In this document: piece by piece, positions 6,453 to 19,204 of the stretch | Layout of the letters: each line of letters opens with the position of its first letter | Numbering within the stretch: position 1 is the first letter of the stretch | Source: Actinomycetota bacterium | GTDB taxonomy: Bacteria > Actinomycetota > Acidimicrobiia > Acidimicrobiales > JAMCQF01 | Reading direction: 5' to 3' | NCBI GenBank assembly: GCA_023379605.1 | Contig: JAMCQF010000055.1 | Location: forward strand, 1-33,483 | DNA length: 33,483 bases | Position numbers and translations under genes: made by a program | The notes under the pieces: model-generated | Told to the model about the DNA's origin: nothing | The model's input: only the letters and a program-made list of their open reading frames with translations | Database searches by the model: none

Positions 6453-7688
6453 GTGGCGGTGGTAGAGCTTATAGCCTTGGATCTTCCTGGAGGACCGGAC
6501 TTTGTCCGGGCACTACAGCAGGTATGGGACAGCGGCAACGCCGCGCTACCCATAGATCCCAGGCTACCTGCTCCAATGCGCAAGGCGGTCATAGAGGCCA
6601 TGTCGCCTTCGGCCATGATCGGACCCGACGGGATATGTCACCGCCTCGCTGGCGGGGTCCCACTAGAGCAGGAAGATGCTCTGGTGGTGGCAACCAGCGG
6701 GACCACTGGCAAGCAAAAAGGGGTCGTACTAACCCACTCAGCCGTGCAGGCATCAGCGCTGGCCACGTCAAAATGCCTTAAAGCTGACCCTTCCACAGAC
6801 AGGTGGCTTGCCTGCCTACCACTGGCACACATAGGTGGGCTGTCGGTGGTGACCAGGGCTCTACACACAGGGATTCCGCTAATTGTCCAGGACGGCTTCG
6901 ACATGAACAAGGTCATCTCCGCCGCACGCTCGGGCGCGACCCTCGTCTCTTTGGTTGCCACAGCGCTCCGGCGGATCGAACCAGGCCTGTTCCGCATAGT
7001 GCTCCTTGGTGCGTCCAGGGCCCCGGCTGACCTCCCGCCAAATGTCGTGACCACCTACGGCATGACAGAAACCGGCAGCGGGGTGGTCTATGACGGCATC
7101 CCACTCGAAGGTGTGGAGGTAAGAGTCTCTTGGCGTGATCCAGCCCCCCAGGGAGAACTTTTGGATCCCGGTGCAGACACAGCTTCAGTCAAGCTGGCAG
7201 AGATCGGCCAAGCTGACCAGGTCAAGCTGGGAGAGGTGCTACTCAGATGCCCGATGCTCCTGCGTTGCTACAGGGAAGGGCCCAACGGGGCATCACCGAC
7301 AGGAGAGGATCCCCGCCTAGAAGGAGGCTGGTTCCCCACCGGTGATGCAGGTTGGATTGACGAGAACCAGCGCCTGCACGTAGCTGGCAGGATCGCAGAG
7401 GTCATTGTCACAGGTGGCGAAAAGGTGTGGCCGGCTGCTGTCGAAGCTGTGCTTAACACCCACCCTTGCGTTGAGGAGATTGCGATTTCTGGCCAGCCAG
7501 ACCCCGAGTGGGGCCAAGCCGTGGTGGCCTGGGTAGTCCCTTCCAAAAGTGGGCCGCCAAGCCTTGAAGATCTCCAAGCAATGGCCTCCGAGCAGCTGCC
7601 ACCCTGGTCCAAGCCCAAGAAAATGAAGGTGGTAAGCTCCCTGCCCCGTACAGCCCTTGGGAAGCTGCGAAGGGAGCTGCTTAGATGA
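6453..7688 (+). CDS. menE: o-succinylbenzoate-CoA ligase-like AMP-binding protein
   Basis: [74 protein letters not shown], and [14 protein letters not shown]; men-cluster context, short (~411 aa) size typical of MenE. Confidence 0.85.
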
Positions 7689-8998
7689 CCGAGTCCATCA
7701 AACAGCACCCGCAGGCTACCCCCGCTGCGATCCCTTCTCGGTGGCTGACAAGAAACACCTGGTGCATAGCAGGGTCAGCCTTCTTTGCCGATCTTGGCTA
7801 CCAAGCAATCATTGCGGGATTCCCTTTGCTGATAGTGGTGGTCCTACACGGCACCACGCGTGAGTTTGCCCTGGCTAGCGCCCTGGCCTATGGAGGAGGT
7901 GCGCTGAGTGGCTACATAGGAGGCAGGCTGGGGGATCGCTACGGAAGGCGCAGGGTTGCCCTTATCGGCAACCTGGGCATCGTCCTGCTGGCACTGTGCG
8001 GGCTGGCAGCGGCTCCATGGCAAGCAGTGGCGCTGTTCGTGGCTGGCTGGTGGTCGCGAAACTTCAGGAGCCCCCCCAGACGAGCGCTTCTGGCGGCGGG
8101 CACCGCTCCCGAAAGCCGCAGCCGGGCGTTCGGGTTCCTGCATGCCTTGGACGTCGGCGGCGGGATGCTGGCGGCCCTGGGTCTGCTTGGGCTGTTGGCT
8201 GCGGGGGTGAGCTTGGGCCACGCCTTTCTGTTCGCGCTCGCTCCGCTACTCGCATCATCTGTGGTGTTGGCCGGAGCCAGGGAAGTTCACCAGCCCCAGC
8301 CCCCCGACATCTCTGAGGAGTCACCCGCCGTCGCAGAGAAGAGTTGCGAGCCAGCCCAGCCCGATCAGGTGCAAACCAGCCCAGCCGGGGAGCCCGGCAC
8401 GCGCGAAGCAGAAAAGGTTACCCGAGCCGTGCTCATCGCCACTGCCCTGTTCGGGTTCAGCTCATACAGCATCGGTTTCCCGGTTCTAACCGTGGCCCAG
8501 GGATCGCACAGCTTGACCCAGGGAGTCGGGGCGTACGCGGTGTTCCTTGGGGTGTCAGCTGCCACAGGGTGGCTGATTGCGACCAGGAGCTGGCCCGCCA
8601 TCGCCACCCTGGCAATAGCGGGGTACGCTCTCAGCGCTGTAGGGACCCTGGGGCTTGGACTTATGGCCAACTTCAATCAAAAGACCGCCTTGGAGTACGT
8701 AACGATAGGGCTTTTGGGCGCAGCTTTGGGAGTAATAGAGACAGTAGAGCCCTCCACCATCGCCAACCTGGCCAAGCTTGCCCGCCAAGGGCGGGCTATG
8801 GGAAAGCTCACAGCAGCAAGGGGCATCGGCCTGCTCGCCGGAAACCTGATCATGGGTCTCCTTTACACATTGAGCCCGCTGGCCGCCTACGCTTACGCAG
8901 CTGCAGTGGGGCTGGCGGCGGCGGTGGTTCTCGTTCCGTCAGCGATCAAGGGTCGTGATCCACTCAGCCGACCCCGCCCCGCAGATCAAGGGTCGTGA
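7685..8998 (+). CDS. Major facilitator superfamily transporter
   Basis: Multiple hydrophobic helices, MFS loop motif GGRLGDRYGRRRVALIG, and a charged central loop; ATGA overlap with the menE stop. C terminus lies in the 40-bp repeats. Confidence 0.85.
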   Translation: MTESIKQHPQATPAAIPSRWLTRNTWCIAGSAFFADLGYQAIIAGFPLLIVVVLHGTTREFALASALAYGGGALSGYIGGRLGDRYGRRRVALIGNLGIVLLALCGLAAAPWQAVALFVAGWWSRNFRSPPRRALLAAGTAPESRSRAFGFLHALDVGGGMLAALGLLGLLAAGVSLGHAFLFALAPLLASSVVLAGAREVHQPQPPDISEESPAVAEKSCEPAQPDQVQTSPAGEPGTREAEKVTRAVLIATALFGFSSYSIGFPVLTVAQGSHSLTQGVGAYAVFLGVSAATGWLIATRSWPAIATLAIAGYALSAVGTLGLGLMANFNQKTALEYVTIGLLGAALGVIETVEPSTIANLAKLARQGRAMGKLTAARGIGLLAGNLIMGLLYTLSPLAAYAYAAAVGLAAAVVLVPSAIKGRDPLSRPRPADQGS

Positions 8999-9075
8999 TC
9001 CACTCAGCCGACCCCGCCCCGCAGATCAAGGGTCGTGATCCACTCAGCCGACCCCGCCCCGCAGACCCAGGGTCG
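8944..9075. repeat. Tandem 40-bp repeat: three complete copies (8944-8983, 8984-9023, 9024-9063) plus a degenerate fragment (9064-9075)
   Basis: Unit GATCAAGGGTCGTGATCCACTCAGCCGACCCCGCCCCGCA repeated exactly. Each unit contains the inverted repeat GATCA-N7-TGATC. Confidence 0.97.
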
Positions 9076-9823
9076 CCCCACCGTCGACTACCACCGTCTG
9101 CCCAGTCATCCACGATGAGGCATCCGAGGCCAAAAACAGCGCTGCTCGGGCTATGTCATCTGGTTCCCCCAGACGGCGCAGTGGAAGCCGCTCGGCTATA
9201 GCCGCTTCTGCGGGCTCCCATAGGGCTCTCGCAAAGTCCGTCTTAACAAGGCCTGGAGCTATGGCATTGACACGGACCCCAGGAGCCATCTCCACTGCCA
9301 GGTGGCGCGTCATGTGGATCACTGCTGCCTTGGTTACGTTGTAGTACCCAATGGCCGGCTCCACGGTCAACCCCCCCACCGATGCCATGTTCACGATTGC
9401 ACCCCCGTGCTCTGACATCCGAGATCGCCAAGCCTGCTGGCACCACAAAAGTACACCCAGCTGGTTCACCTGGACGGTCTTCTCAGCCCTTGGAACGTCG
9501 ATGTCCAGCATCAGGCCCATGTAGGGATTGGTGGCAGCGTTGTTGACCAAAATGTCCAAGCTTCCCAACCGCTCTAGACACGCGTCGACGCACGCCTCGA
9601 TCTCCTCTGGCCGCCCGGCGTTGGCAGCAAACCAGGTCACGTTGGCAGAGGAGCCAGCGGACTGAGCGGCGATCTCCGCCGCTGCAGCCTCAAGGGACTC
9701 GGCTTTGCGCGAAGAGATCAAAACAGCCGCCCCCGCCTGGGCAAAGCGCTTGGCTATGGCCTTGCCAATGCCGCGCGAACCACCGGTCACGAGCGCCACC
9801 TTGCCATCCAGTCTCAGATCCAC
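9044..9823 (-). CDS. Short-chain dehydrogenase/reductase (SDR family, classical)
   Basis: LDGKVALVTGGSRGIGKAIAKRFA, DILVNNAATNPYMG, GYYNVTKAAVIHMTRHLAVEMAP, and SSWMTGQTVVVDGGATL. GTG start 9823 preceded by gaggagagaag; the ORF-track extension to 9979 overlaps the FKBP gene. Confidence 0.9.
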   Translation of the reverse strand: MDLRLDGKVALVTGGSRGIGKAIAKRFAQAGAAVLISSRKAESLEAAAAEIAAQSAGSSANVTWFAANAGRPEEIEACVDACLERLGSLDILVNNAATNPYMGLMLDIDVPRAEKTVQVNQLGVLLWCQQAWRSRMSEHGGAIVNMASVGGLTVEPAIGYYNVTKAAVIHMTRHLAVEMAPGVRVNAIAPGLVKTDFARALWEPAEAAIAERLPLRRLGEPDDIARAALFLASDASSWMTGQTVVVDGGATLGLRGGVG

Positions 9824-9890
9824 CTTCTCTCCTCTCAGCCCAGCATTGTGAAGAGGCCCTGCGCCATCTCCTCTCAGGTCTTCCAAGCAC

Positions 9891-10487
9891 TTATCCCACC
9901 GCAACCAGGTTGACCACAAAGACAAGTGTCTCGCCTGGAAGAATGCCCGATCCAGCAGGCGGCTGATCACCATAGCCAAGGTTTGGCGGAATTACCAGCT
10001 CTCTCTCGCCGCCTACCTTCATCCCTGGCAGGCCTCGAACCCAGCCAGGGATCAAGCTGTTGGCTTTCAAGATGAAGGTAGCTGGAGGACCCTGCCCCCA
10101 GGTGGCGCTGAACGCCTTTCCGGTGGAGCATGAGACGCCAACGTACTGAACTGTCACGGAATCGCCCAGCTCTGCGCTGGCACCACTGCCCATCTTCAAG
10201 TTCTCCACAACCAACGACTTGGGCGCTACCTTAGGCATCTTTACTTCAGGCTCTCCCGCTACGGTGGGGGCTGCTGCGGGCTTGCATGGCTGGCCGGGCC
10301 CTGAACCGTGATCGGTGGAGGTGGATGCTGGGGTGGCTGCAGGCGGCGAGGCCTCTCTGCCAGAGGCGCCCGAGCTGCTGGAAGCCCCGCTCGTGCAAGC
10401 CGCTAACGCCACCGCAATCGCCAAGCCAGTCGCTGCCACTTTCCACCTGTCACGGTGGTTCAAGGGACCGTTCATATGCTGCAACAT
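9891..10487 (-). CDS. FKBP-type peptidyl-prolyl isomerase, predicted lipoprotein
   Basis: Signal peptide with lipobox ALAAC, low-complexity Ser/Gly linker, FKBP core (VTVQYVGVSCSTGKAFSATWGQGPPATFILKANSLIPGWVRGLPGMKVGGERELVIPPNLGYGDQPP). Confidence 0.9.
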   Translation of the reverse strand: MLQHMNGPLNHRDRWKVAATGLAIAVALAACTSGASSSSGASGREASPPAATPASTSTDHGSGPGQPCKPAAAPTVAGEPEVKMPKVAPKSLVVENLKMGSGASAELGDSVTVQYVGVSCSTGKAFSATWGQGPPATFILKANSLIPGWVRGLPGMKVGGERELVIPPNLGYGDQPPAGSGILPGETLVFVVNLVAVG

Positions 10488-10539: not shown

Positions 10540-10700
10540 CAGTACGCTCCTGGGCAGGCTCAAGCGCTTTAAGGCACATGGATCACCTTTATCCAGCGCT
10601 GAGTGGCTCCCTAAGTGGGAGTCGAGCCGTTCACAGATTATTTATGCAGACAAGGCCGCGTTCACTTCCTGTTCACACCCGCTCAAGACACCATCTATTC

Positions 10701-14654: not shown

Positions 14655-15184
14655 TGGGAATCCACCTGCGCCGGGCGGTCATATTGACTGTGTTCTTCTT
14701 CCTCCTGTGTGGACTCGCGTACCCGCTCGCCGAGACGGCCCTGGCCCAAGGGATCTTCGCTCACCAGGCAAACGGCTCTCTGGGTCCCGACGGCTCCACC
14801 CTCATCGGACAGACCTGGGCAGGGCCACAGTGGTTTCACGGCCGCCCGGACCCCAACAACCCAATGGCGACAGGCGGGAGCAACCTGGGCCCTCGCTCAA
14901 AGACGTTGGAGCGCCACGTGGCTGCTCGGATCAAGGCTTTGCGCCAGCTTGGGGTGAGACCCACCTCTGATCTTGTGACCAGCTCTGGAAGTGGAGTGGA
15001 CCCCGACATAAGCCCACGCTCCGCCTATGTACAGATACCAATGGTGGCCCGTGCCACCGGGATCTCCCAACAGCGGCTGCGCAGGCTGGTGGCAAGCCAG
15101 GTGCATCCTGAACAGCTTGGCTTCTTGGGCGCAGCTTACGTAAACGTGCTGGAGCTCAACCAAGCCCTGGCAAGGCTCAAGTGA
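14654..15184 (+). CDS. kdpC: Potassium-transporting ATPase subunit KdpC
   Basis: N-terminal TM, FHGRPDPNNPMATGGSNLGPRSKTL, and LGFLGAAYVNVLELNQAL. Confidence 0.95.
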   Translation: MGIHLRRAVILTVFFFLLCGLAYPLAETALAQGIFAHQANGSLGPDGSTLIGQTWAGPQWFHGRPDPNNPMATGGSNLGPRSKTLERHVAARIKALRQLGVRPTSDLVTSSGSGVDPDISPRSAYVQIPMVARATGISQQRLRRLVASQVHPEQLGFLGAAYVNVLELNQALARLK

Positions 15185-15498
15185 GCACATGGGATTTCAG
15201 CCAGGGCCCGCTCTGGCAGGGAAAGCCCATCGCGCGCAGAGTCGCAGACGCAAGGGCGCGCCGCCGTGCTGTGATCAGCGGTGTGGTGATCTCTGCCAAA
15301 AGCGTGCCTTTTGGTTCCTCGGTTGCCTACGAGTGCATGATAGAAGACGGCACAGGTGAGCTGAGGGTTGTCTTTACCGGCAGAGAGAGCATCCAGGGGC
15401 TGGCAAGAGGGGCCCGATGCACCGTGGAGGCGACTATCCAGGCAAATCACTCAGGTCTTTTCATGCGTGATCCGCTCTATAGGCTGGCAGCTGAGTAG
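15181..15498 (+). CDS. Small OB-fold nucleic-acid-binding-type protein
   Basis: 105 aa; RRRAVISGVVISAKSVPFGSSVAYECMIEDGTGELRVVFTGRESIQGLARGARCTVEATIQANHSGLFMRDPLYRL resembles the tRNA-anti/OB-fold pattern. GTG overlaps the kdpC stop. Confidence 0.65.
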   Translation: MSTWDFSQGPLWQGKPIARRVADARARRRAVISGVVISAKSVPFGSSVAYECMIEDGTGELRVVFTGRESIQGLARGARCTVEATIQANHSGLFMRDPLYRLAAE

Positions 15499-15515: not shown

Positions 15516-16202
15516 CTAGGGCACACCAGGCTCCAGCCTGTAGCCAATCCCCGGATCGGTCCGGACAATCCTACCTTCGGGATCGCCAAGCTTGCGCCTA
15601 AGGCGGTATATGTACACACGAAGGTACTCCCCCTCATCTCCGTAGCTGGGCCCCCAAACTTCTTCTAGGATCATCTTGTGCGTGCAAACCTTCCCGGCGT
15701 GCCTGCCCAGGAACGCCAGAAGATCTAGCTCGCGCTGGGTGAGCTCCAGCCGGATACCGCCCCTGGTTGCCTCGTGATGAACCAGGTCAATTGTGATGTC
15801 TCCAACAGAGATCTCTGCCTCAGAGGGCCTAAGCGCCTCATGCCCCTGGTGGCGCAACGCCACCCTCAAGCGAGCTTCAAGCTCCACCATCCCAAATGGC
15901 TTTGTCATGTAGTCATCCGCCCCTCCATCGAGAGCGGCAACCTTGCGCTCCTCGGTGCCGCCCGCAGAGAGCACAATCACAGGCACTGTGCTCCACTGCC
16001 TGATCCTCTTGCAAACCTCCAAGCCGTCCATGTCGGGCAAGCCCAGATCCAATACGATGACCTCTGGGCTGTCCAATGCCGACTTAGCCAGGCCATCGCT
16101 GCCTGAGGAGGCTTCGTCCACCTCATGGCCCAACGCAGACAGACCGATCCTAAGTGCCCGTAGCAGCGATCTGTCGTCGTCTATGACCAGGACCCTAGCC
16201 AC
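15516..16202 (-). CDS. kdpE: OmpR-family response regulator KdpE
   Basis: Receiver (VLVIDDDRSLLRALRIGL; VIVLDLGLPDMDG; ALDGGADDYMTKPF) and winged-helix output domain (LTQRELDLLAFLGRHAGKVCTHKMILEEVWG; YIYRLRRKLGDPEGRIVRTDPGIGYRL). Confidence 0.93.
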   Translation of the reverse strand: MARVLVIDDDRSLLRALRIGLSALGHEVDEASSGSDGLAKSALDSPEVIVLDLGLPDMDGLEVCKRIRQWSTVPVIVLSAGGTEERKVAALDGGADDYMTKPFGMVELEARLRVALRHQGHEALRPSEAEISVGDITIDLVHHEATRGGIRLELTQRELDLLAFLGRHAGKVCTHKMILEEVWGPSYGDEGEYLRVYIYRLRRKLGDPEGRIVRTDPGIGYRLEPGVP

Positions 16203-16216
16203 CCGTAGCTACCCGC

Positions 16217-17929
16217 TCAGGACGGCACTGCCGCGAGGGGGGCAGCAGGCAGTGTGAACACAAACCTTGCACCGCCACCAGAGCCGCTCTCTACAGATAT
16301 GGTCTTAACCATGCTCCCGAGGGAACTCTTGGCAATGAACAGGCCGAGACCCGCTCCACCGCCCAAACCATTCCCACTCGAGCTCGTCCGCACGAACATG
16401 TCAAAGACCCGCTCTCTCTCCTGGCTGGAGACACCAGGGCCTTGGTCCTCGACTTGGACCGCAACTCTCCCACTGGTGAGCTGGCGGGCGCTCACCACAA
16501 CCGCAGTTCCCTCGGGAGCATGGTTAAGACCATTCTCCAAAAGGTTCACCAGCACCTGGCGTATCAGAAGGAAATCTACCTCCACCTCCGGCAGCTTCTC
16601 GTCCAAGCGCACCTCTACCCGGTAGGGCCACCCGCTCCCAAGTACTCCAAGAGCATCCTCTACAAGGTCCTTCAGCCCAACGGTCTTAAGGCGCAGTCCA
16701 AGGGCCCCTGACTGCACCCTAGTCATGTCCAACAGGCTGGTCACCATCCTGGCGAGCCTGTCGGACTGCGTGTCTATAAGAGTGATGCGCTCGTCCCGGT
16801 CCTCCCCGCGAAGCTCCGCTGCTGGGTCTCTTAGGGTAGAAGCAGAAGCCTTGATGGTTGCCAGAGGCGTCCTTAGGTCATGAGACACAGCTCCAAGCAA
16901 CGTGCTGCGGATCCTGTCTATCTCTTCTAGGAGCTGGGTTCTAAGCGCCTTCTCGCGCAGCCGAGCGCGATCGAGAGCCAGAGCTATGTGATTGGCAAAG
17001 GCGAGGAGAAGCTCCTGTTCGTGCTGGCCCAAGCGAGGGCCTGAGACCCCGAGCAAACCGACAGGCCGGCCCGAGGCAGTCAATGCCAGAGAGTAGATCC
17101 GATGCTGGCGAGCTTTGGGACTTACATCTTTGGAAAGTGGCGCTGGATTGCCTGCGCCGACGCTTGCCAACCTGCCCGAAGGAGGGTTCACCTGATCCAG
17201 CTCACAAGCCGAGAGTGGCACCCCAGCAGCGGCAGTGACCTCCAGGTCACCTTTGGGGCCAGTAGGCAAAAGCAGCACGACGCTGCGTAGCGAGAAAGCC
17301 CCGAGCACGCTGGCAGCGACGAGCTCTGCGAGCTCGGGGAGTGGCTTCTCCTCGAGCAGCATGTCCGATAGCCCAAAGAGACGGCGGGTGTCCTGCTCCC
17401 AGCTAATGGCTCGAGACCTCGCGTCCTTTAAGTTCGCCACCACTCGAGCAACGAGCACCACCACCACCGCATAGACCCCAAGCGCCACCCAGTTCTGGGG
17501 CGCACCGACGACCAAAGTGTAGTAGGGAGGTATGAATACGTAGTCGTAGGCCAGAAATCCCACCGCCACTCCCACGAGCCCAGCAGGGAAGCCCCCCACT
17601 GCCACCCCAGCCACTACGGGCACCACGAGAACCAGAGCCGCAACGGTCACACTCATGTGACCCCTCACCGGCAGCATCCCTACACAAGCCAGGATCACCC
17701 CAGCTACGGTGACCAAAGAGCCGAGTATCGCTTGGCGGACCTGGGAGCCTGGTGTACGCAGTCCCACATCTTCAAGATTACGGCCATTGGCACCATATAA
17801 GCCCAGCCAGCCCGGTGCACCTTGTGTGCAGCCCGGCCCAGTCAGGAGTGACGCCGTGGCTGGTGCACCTTGTGTGCAGCCCGGCCCAGTCAGGACTGAC
17901 GCCGTGGCTGGTGCTGGATGGGATCCCAC
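16217..17929 (-). CDS. KdpD C-terminal-type sensor histidine kinase (DUF4118-like TM domain + GAF-like + HisKA/HATPase), lacking the N-terminal KdpD/USP domains
   Basis: Four-TM block, FLAYDYVFIPPYYTL, GAF-like region, H-box LLGAVSHDLRTPLATIKASASTLRD, N-box NLLENGLNHAPEGT, and G-boxes VEDQGPGVS / GGGAGLGLFIAKSSL. True start may be GTG 17767, placing the repeats outside the CDS. Confidence 0.88.
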   Translation of the reverse strand: MGSHPAPATASVLTGPGCTQGAPATASLLTGPGCTQGAPGWLGLYGANGRNLEDVGLRTPGSQVRQAILGSLVTVAGVILACVGMLPVRGHMSVTVAALVLVVPVVAGVAVGGFPAGLVGVAVGFLAYDYVFIPPYYTLVVGAPQNWVALGVYAVVVVLVARVVANLKDARSRAISWEQDTRRLFGLSDMLLEEKPLPELAELVAASVLGAFSLRSVVLLLPTGPKGDLEVTAAAGVPLSACELDQVNPPSGRLASVGAGNPAPLSKDVSPKARQHRIYSLALTASGRPVGLLGVSGPRLGQHEQELLLAFANHIALALDRARLREKALRTQLLEEIDRIRSTLLGAVSHDLRTPLATIKASASTLRDPAAELRGEDRDERITLIDTQSDRLARMVTSLLDMTRVQSGALGLRLKTVGLKDLVEDALGVLGSGWPYRVEVRLDEKLPEVEVDFLLIRQVLVNLLENGLNHAPEGTAVVVSARQLTSGRVAVQVEDQGPGVSSQERERVFDMFVRTSSSGNGLGGGAGLGLFIAKSSLGSMVKTISVESGSGGGARFVFTLPAAPLAAVPS

Positions 17930-17945
17930 CTCTTGTGCAGCCCAG
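17814..17945. repeat. 48-bp direct repeats: two near-identical copies (17814-17861, 17862-17909) and a degenerate third copy (from 17910)
   Basis: Unit GGTGCACCTTGTGTGCAGCCCGGCCCAGTCAGGA(G/C)TGACGCCGTGGCT, one mismatch between full copies. Each full copy has the dyad TGCAC-N5-GTGCA (e.g. 17816-17830). Confidence 0.95.
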
Positions 17946-17971
17946 GGCAGTCATGAGCCAGAATCGACAGG

Positions 17972-19204
17972 ATGCCAGAACAGAGCTTTGAACCATCCAA
18001 CCTGGCAGCACCGAGCATCCCCTCCGAGCAGGTCACCAAAGCGAGCCACGCCGACAGCGCCTCAGGACCAATCGACGAGCCGAGCGCGGTCGCCCCGGCA
18101 GGAAAGTTCCGCATCTACCTTGGAGCTGCAGCTGGAGTCGGCAAGACAGTCGCCATGCTCGACGAAGGTCAGCGCCGCCGCAGGCGAGGGGCTGACGTAG
18201 TGGCAGCGCTCGTGGAGACCCACGGACGCTCCTATACACAGGCCCAGCTCGAGGGCATCGAGGTACTGCCCCGCAAGACCATCACCTACCAGGGAGCCAC
18301 CTTCACAGAGATGGACTTAGACGCCGTGCTTGCCCGCAATCCCCAGGTCGCCCTCGTAGACGAGCTTGCCCACACAAACGTGCCAGGCAGTGGCAGGCAC
18401 GCCAAACGATGGGAGGATGTCTTGGAGATCCTCCAGGCTGGCATAGCCGTCATAACTACTGTGAACATCCAACACCTAGAGAGCCTGGCCGACGCCGTCG
18501 AGCAGATGACAGGGGCAAGGGTAAGAGAGCGGGTCCCAGACTGGGTAGTCCGCTCCGCCGACCAGATCGAGCTGGTTGACTCCTCTGCCGAGCAGCTAAG
18601 ACGCCGGATCCTGCACGGCAACGTATATCCCCCGGAAAAAGTACCCGATGCCCTCACCCACTTCTTCCGCTCTGAGAACCTGACCGCCTTAAGAGAGCTG
18701 GCGCTTCGCTTTGTGGCCGACGAGACCGAAGAGGAGATGCTCGCATATCTCTGGCGCCACGGCAGCGCCAAGCTTTGGGACACAGCTGAAAGGCTGATGG
18801 TGGCCGTCACAGGCGCTGAGGGATCCGACCAGATCATAAGGCGTGCTGCTCGGATGGCGGCACGCACCAAGGCCAGCCTGCACGCCGTGCACGTTCACAG
18901 TGACACCGGGGAAGGCCGGACCAAAAAGGAAGATCTGGATAGGCTCAAACAGCTGGCAAGCGACCTTGGTGCCTCCTGGCACGAGGTCTCAGGAGACGAC
19001 GTCGCCGGTGCGCTGCTTGCCTTCGCGGGGTCTCATCAGATCACTCAGCTGGTGATAGGAGCCACCAGGCGCAGTCGCTTCGAAGAGCTCTGGCACGGCT
19101 CTGTGCTGCGCGAGGTCATCCGTGGGGCAGCACGCGTCGGCGTCGACGTGCACGTCATCGCCCGCAGGACTGATCGCCCGCCAGCAAATGGTGCGTCCAG
19201 CTGA
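17972..19204 (+). CDS. KdpD N-terminal-type protein: KdpD sensor (P-loop) domain + universal-stress-protein domain, no kinase
   Basis: FRIYLGAAAGVGKTVAMLDEGQRRRRRGADVVAALVETHGR, LVDELAHTNVPGSGRHAKRWEDVLEIL, and GITVITTVNIQHLESL-type block; USP motif LVIGATRRSRFEELWHGSVLREVIR; ends after USP. Confidence 0.92.
   Translation: MPEQSFEPSNLAAPSIPSEQVTKASHADSASGPIDEPSAVAPAGKFRIYLGAAAGVGKTVAMLDEGQRRRRRGADVVAALVETHGRSYTQAQLEGIEVLPRKTITYQGATFTEMDLDAVLARNPQVALVDELAHTNVPGSGRHAKRWEDVLEILQAGIAVITTVNIQHLESLADAVEQMTGARVRERVPDWVVRSADQIELVDSSAEQLRRRILHGNVYPPEKVPDALTHFFRSENLTALRELALRFVADETEEEMLAYLWRHGSAKLWDTAERLMVAVTGAEGSDQIIRRAARMAARTKASLHAVHVHSDTGEGRTKKEDLDRLKQLASDLGASWHEVSGDDVAGALLAFAGSHQITQLVIGATRRSRFEELWHGSVLREVIRGAARVGVDVHVIARRTDRPPANGASS

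Follow-up and report, generated by a model that had tools for sequence, protein, structure and literature searches.

The gap between two divergent halves of a split kdpD gene contains a tandem array of 48-bp repeats that is probably a local noncoding duplication, whose effect, if it has one, would be on the spacing or upstream context of the adjoining promoters. This argues against two tempting labels for the array, that of a repeat-bearing N-terminus of the kinase and that of an array of operators for the response regulator KdpE. At most, the array could tune the neighboring promoters, and a near-neutral array is somewhat more likely than a tuned one.

The 48-bp Array

In the window, which is the whole 33,483-nt stretch of DNA analyzed, Tandem Repeats Finder and a repeat search both identify two full copies on the plus strand, at 17814-17861 and 17862-17909. 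These are identical at 47 of 48 positions, the sole mismatch being a G/C difference at 17848/17896. Both harbor a perfect TGCAC-N5-GTGCA dyad (17816-17830 and 17864-17878). A third, degenerate copy on the same strand (17927-17957) matches the full repeat at 25 of 31 positions and terminates 1 nt before a candidate -10 element of the sensor gene. No other site in the window, on either strand, exceeds 20/31, indicating that copy 3 is related to copies 1 and 2 and is not a chance resemblance. These observations confirm the sequence-only reading, which had described two direct copies one base apart, the dyad in each of them, and a third, degenerate one. Copy 3 no longer has the dyad; it is offset from copy 2 by 61 bp (48 + 13) and not by 48 bp, and consequently lies outside a 16-codon register.

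The array sequence occurs once in its own genome. When 395 genomes of the class were searched, this one included, the 394 others yielded only short, chance-level matches to the repeat (E of about 0.006-0.009). No Rfam match at E ≤ 1 was found in the array region, and the folding of the gap is mildly more stable than that of mononucleotide shuffles (z of about -1.5 to -1.9).

The Split kdpD Locus and Its Predicted Promoters

The array is flanked by genes that together encode a split KdpD, with the N-terminal KdpD and Usp domains on one gene, and DUF4118, HisKA, and HATPase on the other (Pfam). The histidine-kinase half (DUF4118, HisKA, HATPase_c) is encoded on the minus strand at 16217-17767. 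Its preferred start, GTG 17767, is predicted from the onset of homology, codon-position GC, and stops in relatives, and its reading frame is open as far as GTG 17929. The N-terminal sensor/serine-kinase half with the Usp domain is encoded on the plus strand at 17972-19204, as assigned by Pfam, NCBIfam, and a motif check: it harbors the Walker A-like sequence GAAAGVGKT and the Walker B residues DE, and KdpB retains TGES. The response regulator gene on the minus strand at 15516-16202 has KdpE as its best NCBIfam match, with a score under the cut-off of that model. A search of genome contigs returned distant kinases only. Among the loci examined, 27 from relatives have the divergent kinase/sensor arrangement in addition to the window. 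A 105-aa open reading frame following kdpC (15181-15498, plus strand) has no NCBIfam match; locus L059 has a counterpart in the same place with 31% identity.

Both halves of the split kdpD look leaderless, with starts and promoters that are predicted from sequence. Leaderless transcripts are reportedly widespread in mycobacteria. On the kinase side, a candidate -10 element of the leaderless type, TAATCT (17775-17780, minus strand), lies 7 nt before GTG 17767. Counting the window, 12 of 28 loci have TAnnnT at a distance of 5-9 nt upstream of a start close to the equivalent position, as against a shuffled rate of 0.024 per candidate start. The sequence-only reading had instead proposed TTATAT (17795-17800, minus strand) as the -10 of a promoter for GTG 17767; the positions hold, but TTATAT is the weaker candidate, and TAATCT is better suited to the role. 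On the sensor side, the candidate -10 CAGAAT (17959-17964, plus strand), also of the leaderless type, lies 7 nt before the ATG at 17972. As an unseeded motif search for the sensor promoter yielded kinase-gene sequence, a pattern count was used for this side: [CTA]A[ACG]AAT, a pattern written after the gaps had been viewed, precedes an in-frame start by 5-8 nt in 9 of the 28 divergent loci, counting the window, and in 0 of 35 others; in shuffled sequence its rate is 0.005 per start. A pattern scanner found no sigma-70-like promoter in 17600-18100.

The array occupies the interval between the two leaderless-type -10 candidates. Its units thus lie in a putative cis-regulatory region, between two predicted divergent promoters, as expected of a promoter tandem repeat. 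The -10 lies outside copies 1 and 2, which are therefore not duplicated core promoters.

KdpE-Type Boxes Upstream of kdpF

A matrix for the KdpE-type box of this lineage was learned without seeding from the regions upstream of kdpF in 28 relatives, with the window excluded. A first unseeded search recovered the start of the coding sequence, and the final search was restricted to pre-start sequence. The resulting consensus, GTTgACGaatTGTTgACG, scores 237.8, versus at most 60.9 in shuffles, and describes a direct repeat with 11-bp spacing, GTTSAC-N5-GTTSAC. The two highest-ranking sites of the window both lie upstream of kdpF on the plus strand: box 1, GTTCACAGATTATTTATG, at 10629-10646 (21.4 bits) and box 2, GTTCACTTCCTGTTCACA, at 10660-10677 (13.1 bits). 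Two such boxes about 31-33 bp apart precede kdpF in most of the 28 relatives examined. We infer from these sequences that KdpE binds the kdpF boxes in this lineage, and the kdpF promoter is probably where KdpE acts.

The boxes at 10629 and 10660 share their 6-5-6 direct-repeat layout with the KdpE site of E. coli kdpFABC, TTTATA-N5-TTTACA (PMC3264566), whereas the 48-bp repeats have no match to a box of this kind. The minimal KdpE-binding 22-mer of M. smegmatis (PMC5401905) reaches 11.6 bits when read as its reverse complement; 11 of 509,838 positions of the genome studied here, for which the background was a 222-kb sample of stretches, score as high. The authors of that study called the M. 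smegmatis site unlike other KdpE motifs (PMC5401905); in reverse complement, it fits the kdpF matrix of this lineage.

Regulatory and Coding Readings of the Array

The notion that the array consists of tandem KdpE operators, with KdpE bound to each unit at GTGCAC-N5-GTGCAG or at the TGCAC dyad and autoregulating the split kdpD genes, draws on the presence within the unit of a direct repeat spaced by 11 bp, the site geometry of the OmpR/PhoB family. A looser pattern, GTKCA-N6-GTKCA, has only 20 occurrences in the genome, and the sites at kdpF and in the two copies together make up three of these, though it was devised after the sites had been seen. The matrix that finds both kdpF boxes, however, gives the copies only 0.33 bits, ranking them 167-168 among the sites of the window. 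Of random 204-bp stretches, 62% contain a site that scores this well or better, and about one such score is expected by chance in the gap. GTGCAC-N5-GTGCAG was considered as a kdpF-like box and rejected, since it scores at chance with a matrix learned without the window. Nor is such a box conserved at this position: kinase/sensor gaps exceed 10 bits in 1 of 27 relatives, versus a median of 20.6 at the kdpF promoters. In M. smegmatis, furthermore, the kdpD promoter shows only basal activity, which is the same in the wild type and in a kdpE deletion (PMC5401905). Because the box of this lineage is a GTTSAC direct repeat at kdpF and the copies score at chance, the tandem KdpE operators that the sequence-only reading had expected here are not supported, and we regard them as very unlikely. 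Marginally more credit, while still unlikely, can be given to an operator array for another regulator that reads TGCAC-N5-GTGCA. The dyad is perfect in both full copies, but only two further exact sites exist in the 2.5-Mb genome, so no regulon is visible, and copy 3 lacks the dyad altogether. The 48-bp spacing, moreover, amounts to about 4.6 helical turns, which would place the copies on different faces of the helix.

About as unlikely as this second regulator is a coding array, in which the kinase would start at GTG 17929 and carry an extension of 54 residues, rich in Ala, Pro, and Thr, that includes two 16-aa repeats. The frame is indeed open over these 54 codons, 48 is divisible by 3, and in-frame repeats occur near this position in the relatives L064 and L204, although in the N-terminus of the sensor and not of the kinase. 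The composition of residues 1-54 (17929-17768) nevertheless resembles that of noncoding DNA: GC at the three codon positions is 0.70/0.70/0.50 versus 0.70/0.47/0.66 in the body of the kinase, the in-frame codon score is negative, and the pattern across codon positions that marks the window's genes is absent. The extension has little or no homology, as alignments to nearly all of the closest relatives begin at residue ~60 or later; the one exception, beginning at residue 7, is with a relative whose open frame is long. An in-frame stop is frequent at the equivalent position, being present in 13 of 27 relatives with the divergent pair, between codons -11 and +8 (GTG 17767 as codon 1). Copy 3, finally, does not share one kinase frame with the other copies because of its 61-bp offset. 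Codon-position statistics, the start of homology, the stops in relatives, and the register of copy 3 thus make the coding reading unlikely, and the array probably lies outside the kinase protein. Where the sequence-only reading had kept both options, a noncoding array upstream of GTG 17767 survives, and a 16-aa coding repeat is disfavored by the first three of these lines of evidence.

Tandem Arrays in the Genome and Its Relatives

Arrays of this kind are nothing unusual here: across 1.31 Mb of sequence from this genome and its relatives, Tandem Repeats Finder lists 173 with a score of at least 50, and 44 with a score of at least 100. The window itself holds another, with a 40-bp unit in 3.3 copies and 97% matches (8944-9075), located at the 3' ends of the convergent open reading frames 7685-8998 (plus strand) and 9044-9979 (minus strand).

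Relatives have unrelated arrays within or close to the region preceding the sensor half of kdpD: a 24-bp array in L064 (4622-4773), a 21-bp array in L204 (4321-4434), a 15-bp array in L198 (6527-6628), a 7-bp array in L197 (6784-6854), and a 30-bp array in L223 (4957-5046). Those of L064 and L204 apparently lie within the N-terminal coding region of the sensor. In a post hoc comparison that excluded the window, 4 of 27 divergent loci had a strong array upstream of the sensor gene, compared with 7 of 363 gene starts elsewhere (p = 0.004); these strong arrays differ in period (7, 15, 21, and 24 bp). Arrays at the score-50 level gave 8/27 versus 32/363 (p = 0.003) in the same post hoc setting, again without the window. 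Because the comparison was made post hoc on crude gene calls, and two of the score-50 loci come from one genus, this enrichment is a lead only. That the split-kdpD promoter region is a recurrent site of independent repeat expansion in this order, with the repeat number setting the ratio of serine kinase to histidine kinase and so making potassium control adjustable, is a highly improbable proposition at present. If the recurrence of unrelated arrays holds, the locus would offer a setting, outside the mycobacteria, in which to ask whether a two-gene potassium sensor is tuned by the length of a repeat.

Origin of the Array and Comparison with Known Systems

A local noncoding duplication, the reading preferred here, would have proceeded from an older copy, now copy 3, immediately upstream of the sensor -10. 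This copy may have been the source of copies 1 and 2, which could have arisen through slippage or unequal recombination. The duplication would have moved the two promoters apart, and we propose that it was tolerated because it sits between two short leaderless promoters. Any effect on the sensor and kinase promoters may be exerted through their spacing or their upstream context, by analogy with promoter repeats in mycobacteria.

The genetic context has precedents. In E. coli, the N-terminal domain of KdpD is a serine kinase that acts on Ser162 of KdpB, and separate serine-kinase and histidine-kinase KdpD chains are known in other phyla (PMC11018627), most commonly in Acidobacteriota and Chloroflexota. 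Like those systems, the locus described here has N-terminal KdpD/Usp and DUF4118/histidine kinase on separate genes and keeps the Walker A-like G-X5-GKT, the Walker B DE, and the TGES of KdpB (PMC11018627). Unlike them, its two halves are divergent and have a common intergenic region, an arrangement that is recurrent in this order.

For the array itself, the closest likeness is to the promoter tandem repeats of M. tuberculosis, which include the 58-bp repeat of lpdA and those of dop and cysG/efpA (PMC12817950). The number of copies in M. tuberculosis differs from strain to strain and is linked to expression (PMC12817950), whereas here a single assembly is available. A further difference is that here only the degenerate copy adjoins a -10, the full copies being without one. 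The arrays nevertheless resemble each other in having a unit of tens of bases, in their head-to-tail arrangement, and in their position close upstream of a leaderless start. The lpdA array lies 12 bp upstream of its gene (PMC12817950), and the last copy of the array described here ends 14 bp before the ATG of the sensor gene.
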